NCBI RefSeq assembly: GCF_003124125.1
Contig: NZ_QCXQ01000003.1
Coordinates: forward strand, 27,210-91,209
DNA from: Levilactobacillus bambusae
GTDB lineage: Bacteria; Bacillota; Bacilli; Lactobacillales; Lactobacillaceae
Direction: 5' to 3'
DNA length: 64,000 nucleotides
Part shown: positions 6,755 through 45,975 of the stretch, one piece after another
Position numbering within the stretch: the stretch's first letter is position 1
How the letters are laid out: every line of letters begins with the position of its first letter
Translations under genes and position numbers: made by a program
Notes under the pieces: generated by a model
The model's input: only the letters and a program-made list of their open reading frames with translations
The model's database searches: none
Told to the model about the DNA's origin: nothing

Positions 6755-6822
6755 AAACACTGTATATTTTTGAATTATGTTAACTTATTTGACATATGAT
6801 TCGGAGAAAGGATATTTCTTAC

Positions 6823-8004
6823 ATGCTTGAAAAAACATTTTACAAGACCTTTTTAAGCCGCTCGTTCAACATTCCCATTCGCGTCAACTACTGGGATGGT
6901 TCGAGTGACGTTTACGGTAACGGAGATCCGCAAGTCACCATTACCTTCCACAAAGAAGTACCAATCAAAGACATCCGCAAGAATGCCTCTATCGCACTCG
7001 GGGAAGCCTACATGGACGGAACCATTGATATTGACGGGAGTATCGAAGACTTACTGACCTCAGCTTACGAAACGGCCGACAGTTTCTTCCATAACTCTAA
7101 GTTTATCAAATTCCTACCCAAACAAAAGCACACCATCCAAGAAAGCAAGGATGACATTGCCAAACACTACGACGTTGGGAATGACTTCTACGAACTTTGG
7201 CTGGACCCAACCCTGACTTACTCGGCCGCCTACTTCGAACACGAAGATGACACCCTGGAACAGGCGCAGATCAACAAAGTTCACCACATTATCCAGAAGT
7301 TAGATCCCCAACCAGGTAAAACCTTGCTGGATATTGGATGTGGTTGGGGAACATTAATGCTGACGGCCGCCAAAGAATTTGGTTTGAAGGTTACGGGTAT
7401 CACCCTGAGCCACGAACAGTACGACCTGGTTAACCAACGGATTAAGGACGAAGGCTTACAGGATGTGGCCGAAGTTCGTTACGAAGATTACCGTGAATTA
7501 GGCGACGAGCAATGGGACTACATTACCTCAGTCGGAATGTTCGAACACGTCGGCGAAGAAAACCTCGGGGAATACTTCGAACGCATCAACCACTACTTAA
7601 AGGATGACGGGGTGGCCCTCATCCACGGAATTACCCGTCAGCAGGGCGGTGCCAACAACGGTTGGTTAAACAAATGGATCTTCCCTGGTGGCTACGTACC
7701 CGGATTAGTTGAAAACATTCAACACATTATCGAAAACGGTCTTCAATTGGACGACCTCGAAACCTTACGCCGTCACTACCAACGAACGACCGAAATCTGG
7801 GATGCCAACTTCAACGAACATCGAGCTGAAGTTGAAAACATGTTTGACGACCAATTCGTCCGCATGTGGGACCTTTACTTACAAGCCTGTGCTGCCTCCT
7901 TCAAGTCAGGCAACATCGATGTCATGCAGTTCCTCCTCACCAAGGGTGCATCCGGTAAAGGATTACCGATGACGAGGGAACACATTTACGAGAGTGAGAG
8001 CTAG
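6823..8004 (+). CDS. cfa: Cyclopropane-fatty-acyl-phospholipid synthase
   Basis: Cfa adds a methylene group from S-adenosylmethionine to the double bond of membrane phospholipid acyl chains (for example to make lactobacillic acid), giving acid and stress tolerance. The start is ATG 6823 ([10 protein letters not shown]), with GGAGAAAGGA upstream; an earlier ATG at 6796 precedes that site. The 393 residues include the N-terminal lipid-binding part (about 1-115), the [26 protein letters not shown] block (about 125-150) and the SAM motif [13 protein letters not shown] (about 166-178), then the MFEHVG and GG.xxN.W regions. The last codons and stop lie in the arm of an intergenic repeat, and the final 29 bp are duplicated 123 bp downstream. 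Confidence 0.96.
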
Positions 8005-8126
8005 GTCGTTTAGACTTTGAGCACTAACGTAATATCCCTTGCTATGCCTGGTTTTGGCATGGTAAGGGATATTTTGTTAGGCGCAGAAGTCTGACCTAGG
8101 GAACACATTTACGAGAGTGAGAGCTA
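7975..8126 (+). repeat. Duplicated 3' end of cfa (29-bp exact direct repeat, 123 bp apart)
   Basis: Bases 7975-8003 (the last codons of cfa) recur exactly at 8098-8126. Each copy is followed by a hairpin of the same architecture but different arm sequence. The coding tail is identical while the hairpins diverged, so either the duplication is recent and the hairpins changed quickly, or a repeat element was inserted beside each tail. Confidence 0.9.
8001..8099 (+). repeat. Structured intergenic repeat, copy A1 (also cfa terminator)
   Basis: Outer arms CTAGGTC + AGACTT (8001-8017) pair with AAGTCT + GACCTAG (8087-8099). Core motifs TGAGCACTAAC and GTTAGGCGCAG flank an inner hairpin (stem 8031-8048 with 8055-8073). 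The inner hairpin followed by TTTTG can act as terminator. The cfa stop codon lies within the outer arm. Confidence 0.75.
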
Positions 8127-8220
8127 AATCGCCTGATCCTAAGGACTAATAAATAGCCCCTACTATGCTTATTCTTTGGCATAGTAGGGGCTATTTGTTA
8201 GCCACAGAAGGTTGAACCAT
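8126..8220 (+). repeat. Structured intergenic repeat, copy A2 (terminator-like)
   Basis: A perfect 18-bp inner stem (8151-8168 with 8179-8196) lies between AAGGACTAAT and GTTAGCCACAG, the same core motifs as in copy A1. Outer arms pair poorly here, so this copy may be decaying. Confidence 0.65.
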
Positions 8221-8269
8221 CCCTCACATCCCTATTGAATTTTTAGCATCCACTAAAAGAGATTCCGGC

Positions 8270-22026: not shown

Positions 22027-22134
22027 TCCAGACTTTCTGCAGAACTTCCTGCAAATTGGTCGGGGTTGCAACCAAACGGTCTCAAACGCTTAGCTGGGTT
22101 TCACTCCCAAATGGGGAGGTCGGCACCCGAAAAA
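22027..22134 (-). other. Leader region of the NCS2 permease
   Basis: On the minus strand this 108-nt stretch contains small hairpins (CTCCC/GGGAG; TTGGT/ACCAA; GCAG/CTGC) before the start codon. None matches the purine-riboswitch core. It is bordered by the tandem intergenic repeats to the right. Confidence 0.35.
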
Positions 22135-22258
22135 ACAAGGTGTGACTTGCTTCGTTAGATCCTGAGGATTAGCTCAAGAAAAGTTTAATGCCGCTTCTTG
22201 GCATGAAACTTTTCTGTGGCTAACCGCAGGGATCTGAAGCAAGGAGCCTAATTAGACA
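22135..22258 (+). repeat. Structured intergenic repeat, copy A3
   Basis: Starts AACAAGGTGTGA and ends GAGCCTAATTAGACAA. Outer arms CTTGCTTC/GAAGCAAG and AGATCC/GGATCT pair perfectly; core motifs TGAGGATTAGC and GGCTAACCGCAG flank an inner hairpin (AGAAAAGTTT with AAACTTTTCT, then ATGCC/GGCAT). Confidence 0.85.
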
Positions 22259-22379
22259 AAGTGTGAGCCACCTCGGGAGATTCTGAGGATAACCTAAGAA
22301 AGGAATTGGGCCGTTACTGGGCACATTTCCTTTCTGTAGTTAACCGCAGGAATCTGAGGTGGTGAGCCTAATTAAACAA
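22259..22379 (+). repeat. Structured intergenic repeat, copy A4
   Basis: Same layout as the copy before it: GTGTGAG, outer arms CCACCTC/GAGGTGG and AGATTC/GAATCT, core TGAGGATAAC and GTTAACCGCAG, inner hairpin AGAAAGGAA/TTTCCTTTCT, then GAGCCTAATTAAACAA. Arm sequences differ from the neighbours but pair internally. Confidence 0.85.
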
Positions 22380-22500
22380 GGTGTGAAGCCCTTCGGTTAA
22401 CTTTCGCGCATAGCCTAAGATGACCAAAATTGCCTGCTCCTTGGCAATTATGGTTATCTGTAGCTAGGCACAAAAAGTTGAAGGGGTGAACCTGATTAAA
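22380..22500 (+). repeat. Structured intergenic repeat, copy A5
   Basis: GTGTGAAG, outer arms CCCTTC/GAAGGGG and AACTTT/AAAGTT, core CGCATAGC and GCTAGGCACA, inner hairpin AGATGACC..AATTGCC / GGCAATT..GGTTATCT, then GAACCTGATTAAA. The most diverged member of this tandem set, with all stems kept. Confidence 0.8.
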
Positions 22501-22540
22501 GGTGTGACTTGCTTCGTTAGATCCTGAGAATCATAAATCC
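22501..22540 (+). repeat. Truncated intergenic repeat, fragment A6
   Basis: The first 28 bases (GGTGTGACTTGC...CCTGAG) are identical to copy A3, including its outer arm, and then the sequence departs. The 3' arm is absent, so it is a broken copy. Confidence 0.8.
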
Positions 22541-30070: not shown

Positions 30071-30189
30071 TTTAGTCGGGTTCCGCTTCTCAACTTTCTG
30101 CGGTTAACCAAGCTCACAAATAATACTAAAACCCAGTATTTTTTGTGAGCTCCGTTAATCCTCAAAAGTAAGCGAGAATCTCCACACTC
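30071..30189 (-). repeat. Structured intergenic repeat, copy A7 (inverted orientation)
   Basis: Read on the minus strand it starts GTGTGG and has TGAGGATTAAC and GGTTAACCGCAG cores, an inner hairpin GCTCACAAA/TTTGTGAGC with AATAC/GTATT, and outer arms CGCTT/AAGCG and ACTTT/AAAGT. Confidence 0.8.
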
Positions 30190-30309
30190 TTTTAGTCGGG
30201 TTCCTCCGCTCAGATCTCTGCGGTTAACCAGGTCATCGAATAATACCTAAGATCAGTATTTTTCGATGACCCCGTTAAGCCTTAAGATCTACCGAGCGGT
30301 TCCACACCC
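30190..30309 (-). repeat. Structured intergenic repeat, copy A8 (inverted orientation)
   Basis: Tandem to copy A7. Outer arms CCGCTC/GAGCGG and AGATCT/AGATCT; inner hairpin GGTCATCGAA/TTCGATGACC with AATAC/GTATT; the core CTGCGGTTAACC is kept. Arms again differ from those of the neighbour yet pair. Confidence 0.8.
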
Positions 30310-30427
30310 TAACCTGCAACTAACTGGTCCGAAAGCATCCAGTTAAGGACGACAGGCTTTCGGATCATGTTGCAAGAGTCGTTTTTTAAGCGAAGCGGAC
30401 CTAATACCCCAGACCTTTTTTATTTGT
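30310..30427 (+). repeat. Structured repeat, copy C1
   Basis: TGCAAC...TGGTCCGAAAGC pairs with GCTTTCGGATCA.GTTGCA around CATCC...GGAC. It is followed by AAGCGAAGCGGACCTAATA (30388-30406) and CAGACCTTTTTTATT. Copy C2 near 45.9 kb shares the CGAA.GCATCC block and the GCGAAGCGGACCTA..T tail. Confidence 0.7.
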
Positions 30428-45742: not shown

Positions 45743-45860
45743 ACAAGGCTGCGACATTATTCGTTTAAGCCTGGCAAAATAGGGACCATCCCGTAATACG
45801 AACGCCTTTTGCGCGTGTTTTGGGATGGTCCCTATTTTAATTTGGCTTGACAAATGTCAC
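45743..45860 (+). repeat. Structured repeat, copy B2 (terminator-like)
   Basis: AACAAGGCTGCGAC start and CGTTTAAGCC core as in copy B1. A 17-bp perfect inner stem (45776-45792 with 45822-45838) reads AAAATAGGGACCATCCC and complement. Outer GACATT/AATGTC and AAGCC/GGCTT also pair. Arms differ from B1. Confidence 0.75.
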
Positions 45861-45975
45861 GTAACTACCGGCACGAAGGCATCCGTACTTTGGATGAGGG
45901 GCTTCGGGCGAAGCTGCGGATTTATGTTTTCTGAGCGAAGCGGACCTAGTATTTCAAACCCTTTTTTATTGGGAT
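45861..45975 (+). repeat. Structured repeat, copy C2, in the leader of the YdcF gene
   Basis: CGAAGGCATCC...GGATGAGGGGCTTCGG and GAGCGAAGCGGACCTAGTA (45933-45951), followed by CAAACCCTTTTTTATT, match copy C1 at 30.3 kb. It follows copy B2 directly, in the same order as B1 then C1, and precedes the ydcF-like start by about 45 bp. Confidence 0.7.

Follow-up and report, generated by a model that had tools for sequence, protein, structure and literature searches.

The array at positions 22137-22531 of the window (the whole 64,000-nucleotide stretch of DNA analysed here) belongs to a family of imperfect hairpins of about 119 nt, which occurs in many dispersed copies in the genome that contains the window (the source genome) and in genomes across the Lactobacillales. 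These hairpins have a fixed architecture, keep their pairing better on the sense strand, in many arrays follow closely on a stop codon, are present at some orthologous sites and absent from others, and mix their modules. With a probability of roughly 0.55, we read them as a MITE-like, palindromic, multi-copy element of Lactobacillales that is selected as a transcribed 3'-UTR hairpin, perhaps one setting mRNA 3' ends or stability.

Hairpin units in the window and the source genome

An earlier note on this DNA had described three tandem copies and a partial fourth, and all four are present: covariance models return the three full units, and sequence identity to unit 1 shows the truncated one (Table 1). 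Each full unit folds as one long imperfect hairpin, with minimum free energies of -53.4, -52.8 and -45.2 kcal/mol for units 1, 2 and 3, and for none of them was any of 200 shuffled sequences equally stable. The arm pairs that had been picked out by letter, CTTGCTTC/GAAGCAAG, CCACCTC/GAGGTGG and CCCTTC/GAAGGGG, all form in the predicted folds. By eye, the ends of the units pair in part, AGAGTGCG with CGCAC and GGGT with ACCC.

Table 1. Units of the hairpin family located in the window, with scores from covariance models R1 and R2 and fold z-scores relative to shuffled sequence.
Feature	Position	Strand	R1 (bits)	R2 (bits)	Fold z	Remarks
Array 22137-22498, unit 1	22137..22254	+	113.2	96.5	-6.95	imperfect hairpin of about 118 nt
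Array 22137-22498, unit 2	22258..22374	+	101.4	85.9	-6.78	
Array 22137-22498, unit 3	22378..22498	+	82.1	79.1	-5.66	core divergent yet paired
Truncated unit 4	22499..22531	+				33 nt, 5' arm only; 97% identical to start of unit 1
Second array (7991-8232), unit 1	7991..8111	+				first bases encode last residues and stop codon of cyclopropane fatty acid synthase-like gene 6796-8004 (annotation from matches below NCBIfam cut-offs)
Second array (7991-8232), unit 2	8114..8232	+	71.0	52.0		
Third array (30073-30310), unit 1	30193..30310	-	119.8	108.6		
Third array (30073-30310), unit 2	30073..30190	-	125.2	116.3		
Single weak, degenerate unit	45746..45867	+		39.7		about 9 nt after TAA stop codon; missed by R1 at E 0.01

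The 22137-22531 array lies between two minus-strand genes, one for a purine-type permease (PF00860) and the other for a nucleoside transporter (PF01773, PF07662); it is antisense to both and 66 nt from the permease ORF, a setting atypical of the family. Palindromic stretches (GGTTGCAACC and others) are also found at 22030-22135, between the array and the start of the permease gene, with no Rfam match at or above the gathering score.

Copies in the source genome were found first by blastn and then by motif search, and 22 aligned units gave covariance model R1; model R2 was built from 138 units out of 81 searched loci, 49 of relatives and 32 of the source genome. Copy counts are lower bounds, the best 150 of several hundred candidates, or the best 62 or 9 per genome, having been scored. 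The window holds eight full units, one of them weak, and the source genome has at least about 69 units, distributed over 40 arrays or solitary copies (modelled strand, E <= 1e-9, in the stretches searched). All 69 are distinct, and two at distant loci differ at only 2 of 118 bases. R1 makes at least 89 matches in this genome at E <= 0.1 among the best 150 of 512 candidates, weak opposite-strand matches included, and there were no units in eight control stretches of its contig C1 (160 kb of 512 kb). Short, non-coding, dispersed in many copies and stably folded (in the three units examined for folding), the family shows these features of a MITE.

Units are perhaps sparse far from the replication origin, with none in the 160 kb of C1 of the source genome, and none of the 34 copies of genome G029 in the 40% of its chromosome nearest the terminus. 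The origin bias in genomes G029, G013, G015 and G003 pooled has a KS p of 2.4e-5 for 107 copies (contig C1 only of each genome, one overlapping G029 fragment and one tandem weak G003 match left out), and G029 alone is significant individually. At four loci (L054, L068, L047 and L051) the 3' half of the unit appears by eye to be tandemly repeated downstream of the first unit, without a clear 5' half.

Architecture and covariation

The unit is built of an outer stem, a GGTTA-type bulge and a second stem, followed by an asymmetric internal loop that is conserved, with GAGSATTAAC facing GTTAASCG; beyond the loop come a central stem of some 11 bp and a small hairpin at the apex. For the 22 aligned units of the source genome RNAalifold gives 40 pairs, 33 of which have at least one double change. 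In the 138-unit alignment, which was fitted to the model and hence leans towards the structure, 95.2% of 5485 pair cells form, compared with 61.4% after shuffling and at most 48.9% when slid; double changes occur in 38 of the 40 pairs (shuffled mean 32.9). The alignment has a covariation score of 0.863, compared with 0.211 for shuffled and at most 0.150 for slid controls.

Folding is better preserved on the sense strand. Over 37 pairs of the 138-unit alignment, omitting three whose commonest form is G.U or U.G, there are 222 G.U and 61 A.C combinations on that strand; a process blind to strand should yield the two in similar numbers, and on this ground we take the sense strand to be the one that folds. 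Among the 22 units of the source genome the excess is small, 37 to 22 with three pairs omitted, which counts against an RNA reading, and the tolerance of G.T pairs in single-stranded DNA weighs in the same direction.

The earlier note had held compensatory change in the array to be strong evidence that structure is selected, as an RNA family or as a mobile palindromic DNA element. Selection on structure is supported by the covariation, which increases as more copies are aligned, together with the sense-strand G.U excess. Paired changes are indeed present, but part of the signal comes from swaps of whole modules and not from paired point changes alone. As to the two kinds of element, both halves of the suggestion gain support, since there are dispersed and partly near-identical copies and orthologous sites both filled and empty.

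Taxonomic range and searches for known families

Searching relatives with a covariance model, as had been proposed, brought matches across the genus and the order and copies well beyond the array. In the genus, which is probably Levilactobacillus, 33 of 36 genomes (the source genome included) have a match at E <= 0.01; among the best candidates there was none at that threshold in G016, G022 and G025, and scoring more candidates gave one weak match in G025. Matches of at least 48 bits were found in named relatives of Levilactobacillus, Paucilactobacillus, Lentilactobacillus, Companilactobacillus, Furfurilactobacillus and Secundilactobacillus, in a search that made 48 matches at E <= 0.1 in 80 loci, weak ones counted. 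Across the order, R2 matched at E <= 1e-6 in at least 110 of 395 sampled genomes and in 35 of 80 genera, the source genus included. Thirteen positive genomes from other families have between at least 1 and at least 73 matches each, with match lengths near 119 nt. Family f3 of the order is probably Enterococcaceae, because a flanking nrdD is 78.6% identical to nrdD of Enterococcus gallinarum.

No known family had been recognised from the array itself, and Rfam 15 likewise has no match at or above the gathering score in the 64-kb window or in 141,340 bases of 11 relatives' loci; around the 22137-22531 array there were 9 matches at E <= 10, all below the gathering score. A known RNA family was therefore rejected. 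In the open-licence PMC literature we found no description of this hairpin family of about 119 nt. Exact core patterns had no match in viral contigs (the patterns are strict and this evidence is weak), blastn with four queries found none in plasmids, and an exact pattern that suits the source genome only had none in genome contigs. Integron attC sites were set aside on the grounds that the stem encloses the GTTAAC boxes and that there are no cassettes between units.

By description alone, the EFAR elements of Enterococci are the closest named kin, and the hairpin family is also found in probable Enterococcaceae. A fixed unit of about 119 nt, the internal-loop motif and an order-wide spread are not known to have been described for EFAR. 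De Gregorio et al. (2009, FEMS 292:7-12) reportedly found in EFAR a variable assembly of sequence types, stem-loop folding and integration at stem-loop targets. EFAR may be a branch of the hairpin family.

EFAR elements are named among bacterial MITEs, often adjacent to genes and transcribed (PMC3733652). The BOX, RUP and SPRITE repeats of Streptococcus pneumoniae are small structured interspersed elements, BOX being modular, that are enriched between convergent genes, and expression has been shown for some BOX elements (PMC3049150). Set side by side by description, they resemble the hairpin family in structure, in modularity (BOX) and in convergent-gene enrichment, but differ in being, according to the same paper, almost absent from other streptococci apart from S. 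mitis; S. suis has elements related to BOX (PMC3049150). REP/BIME elements, which go with RAYT (Y1) transposases, are palindromic, lie mostly downstream of genes and often supply a TAG stop (PMC3733652), all of which recalls the hairpin family. They differ in being 20-40 bp long with GTAG or CGTC tags, whereas 0 of 69 units of the source genome have such a tag within 8 nt of the end and this genome has no Y1 transposase. NEMIS/Correia and ERIC elements are likewise MITE-like by description, with transcripts that fold into long stem-loops; action of RNase III has been proposed for NEMIS hairpins and effects on mRNA stability for ERIC (PMC2229807). They differ in their hosts, and their terminal inverted repeats, ending in TA, have no clear counterpart in the hairpin family. 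MITE-like elements of other bacteria (NEMIS, ERIC, BOX/RUP/SPRITE and REP) are thus reported to act in ways such as we propose here.

Position relative to genes

In the source genome 24 of 40 arrays begin between -28 and +9 nt from a same-strand stop codon, while in the mirror control 0 of 40 array 3' ends lie that close to an antisense stop codon (ORFs of at least 80 aa; Fisher 8e-10, counts entered by hand). Seven other arrays come after a different repeat of about 100 nt, another is 258 nt distant, and eight, the 22137-22531 array among them, have no sense ORF upstream, which counts against the 3'-UTR reading. Among 31 loci of the genus and 27 from other families, 14 in each set lie within -30 to +12 nt of a sense stop codon, with one mirror case in each set and with 4.9% and 4.3%, respectively, of random positions (L068, L280 and the weak L195-L197 omitted). 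Several arrays themselves supply the TAG stop or the last codons, as with the cyclopropane synthase-like gene in the window. Sense orientation together with pairing kept on that strand, as befits a 3'-UTR RNA, is found for roughly half the arrays or more, and not for that at 22137-22531.

Where an array has a sense ORF upstream, it faces a convergent gene in 24 of 31 cases; the corresponding share in the control stretches is 19% of all gene ends, or 36% when the count is confined to ends that are convergent or have a gap of more than 80 nt. In none of the 40 arrays do the 14 nt past the last unit contain a T run (6 of 8), and the hairpin plus T run of an intrinsic terminator is accordingly lacking. 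Separate terminator-like hairpins can be seen by eye after many arrays.

At ten chosen loci of the source genome (L098, L076, L077, L078, L087, L105, L093, L091, L086 and L099) a second, conserved hairpin repeat lies downstream of the array. It is a symmetrical AAATA...TATTT hairpin with a variable yet seemingly paired stem, and resembles a bidirectional terminator module. Eight of the ten (L098, L076, L077, L078, L087, L105, L093 and L091) have a third repeat (about 100 nt) upstream, a GGTCCGAAAGC/GCTTTCGGACC hairpin, and the composites of second and third repeats with the array share outer ends of approximately GGGACAT and ATGTCCC, roughly inverted.

Filled and empty sites and the replacement of arms

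One Levilactobacillus-type locus has a unit right after the stop codon in 3 of the 26 genomes listed (L135, L136 and L149), and most of the other 23 have, by eye, a terminator-like hairpin soon after the stop codon. At ychF (TIGR00092) units start inside the stop codon in Lentilactobacillus rapi, L. fungorum and Paucilactobacillus suebicus and 4 nt past it in L. kisonensis, and at some of these sites the empty relatives have a co-directional gene close behind. No filled and empty sites compared were alike enough on both flanks to show a target site duplication. At an aldo-keto reductase locus (PF00248), 27 orthologues of at least 82% identity comprise 10 with an intact unit (L217 counted as filled), 2 with a degraded one, 14 with none and 1 uncounted (L224), with L237-L239 (58-59% identical) left out; the decayed copy L213 and the internal deletion in L218 at this locus count against selection in place. 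At the cfa locus the source genome has two units, and there is none in the 29 relatives read, of 35 (L316 and L328 taken as empty by eye). The cfa 3' UTR of relatives (L300-L328) has a small conserved hairpin around GACCGCGGATC between stop codon and terminator; by eye its arms differ yet seem paired, and it was not seen in the source genome, where the units sit.

Comparison of the 10 units of the reductase locus over 42 pairs (45 comparisons, which are not independent) gave 1231 cells that are the same, 520 changed on both sides, 94 changed on one side and 45 broken. L221 is involved in 37 of the 45 broken cells, and each of its nine comparisons includes some. Double changes lead in distant pairs of units (L210/L228, 18 both, 0 one-sided and 0 broken) and in the close pair L225/L228 (9, 1 and 1), and do not lead in the close pairs L217/L223 (0, 2 and 0) and L221/L223 (0, 4 and 4). 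Between L136 and L135, where the flanks are 98.8% identical over 594 bases, the units are 79% identical, their arms having been replaced and still being paired. For L149/L136 and L059/L070 unit identity is about that of the flanks, and single paired changes seen there by eye indicate that pairs change one by one too.

Among 1026 pairs of source-genome units with equal module lengths, 16 have common outer arms (at least 90%) with a different centre (below 70%), 9 have the reverse and 34 have both in common. In genome G007 a copy at C11:64161-64283 has both outer arms at 89-91% of those of the reductase-site unit and not its centre, and this favours module exchange at that site; whole-unit gene conversion was rejected, as G007 has no near-identical donor (next best 80%). 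Much of the double change would follow from swaps of the contiguous central hairpin that the two conserved cores enclose, and the comparisons suggest that new arms arise through module exchange between copies together with paired base changes.

Proposed function and alternatives

In the mechanism we propose, units settle between stop codon and terminator, mostly in sense and, in the source genome, often in tandem. Because of this position and orientation they should join the 3' UTR of the upstream mRNA, and it is from position that we infer their transcription; selection on the transcript as RNA would then be the most likely reason for folding on the sense strand. Most likely the double-stranded 3'-UTR module would be used by a host RNase, probably RNase III, or by a putative RNA-binding protein that reads the conserved internal loop, and either would thereby determine where the upstream mRNA ends and how stable it is. 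As to mobility, the Y1 transposase (PF01797) is absent from the source genome, with its approximately 69 units, and across 40 genomes 23 have it and 17 do not; reverse transcriptase (PF00078) is absent from the source genome and from G013 (at least 24 family matches) and present in 6 of 12 genomes searched. The two usual mobilisers of small repeats are thus now absent from the source genome, for which mobilisation by REP/RAYT and by reverse transcription were both rejected.

The hairpin might instead be purely selfish DNA, read in trans by a transposase or recombinase as a single-stranded or cruciform structure, with the position at stop codons reflecting tolerance of insertion. Near-identical dispersed copies, modular mixing and filled and empty orthologous sites are what such an element would leave, and the excess between convergent genes suits a tolerated parasite, as the pneumococcal BOX, RUP and SPRITE repeats have been read to be (PMC3049150). 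Tolerance alone, however, does not predict the strong sense orientation, and pairing better kept on one strand and structure largely kept between species at orthologous sites also argue against it, as does the source genome, which carries its many units with neither of the two mobiliser gene types screened. We consider purely selfish DNA possible, if on the unlikely side.

If the hairpin were a transcription terminator, or insulated convergent genes in both directions, this would account for the number of arrays that face a convergent neighbour, and in the pneumococcus SPRITE repeats have been proposed as terminators (PMC3049150). Such a role is improbable given that the arrays lack a T run, that many are followed by terminator-like hairpins of their own, and that units occur at ychF where a co-directional gene closely follows in empty relatives. 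The pairing could even be mutational in origin, kept without selection as template switching during replication perfects the palindrome; the ratio of double to single changes at the reductase locus is what palindrome correction would give, but the bulge and the asymmetric internal loop have been conserved, not perfected, G.U exceeds A.C on one strand, and decayed copies such as L213 exist, all of which make this explanation very hard to credit.

Extending the reading of a selected 3'-UTR hairpin, we offer tentatively, and hold as doubtful, the broader proposal of an order-wide RNA family of fixed length, about 119 nt, whose arms are quickly replaced while the pairing and the internal-loop motif are retained. 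Such a family would serve as a 3'-UTR module that is portable, that a conserved Lactobacillales protein reads, and that spreads by a stop-codon-directed route needing neither Y1 transposase nor reverse transcriptase.

In many genomes of lactic acid bacteria and related groups there are tens of these hairpins, frequently directly behind stop codons, none of them matching Rfam. Their sense-strand placement at stop codons raises the question of how so small an element finds that place. A single site followed through many species, with arms largely replaced and pairing mostly kept, is a natural experiment in molecular evolution, and if the hairpin sets mRNA ends or stability, a large layer of 3'-UTR regulation has been missing from the picture of these bacteria.
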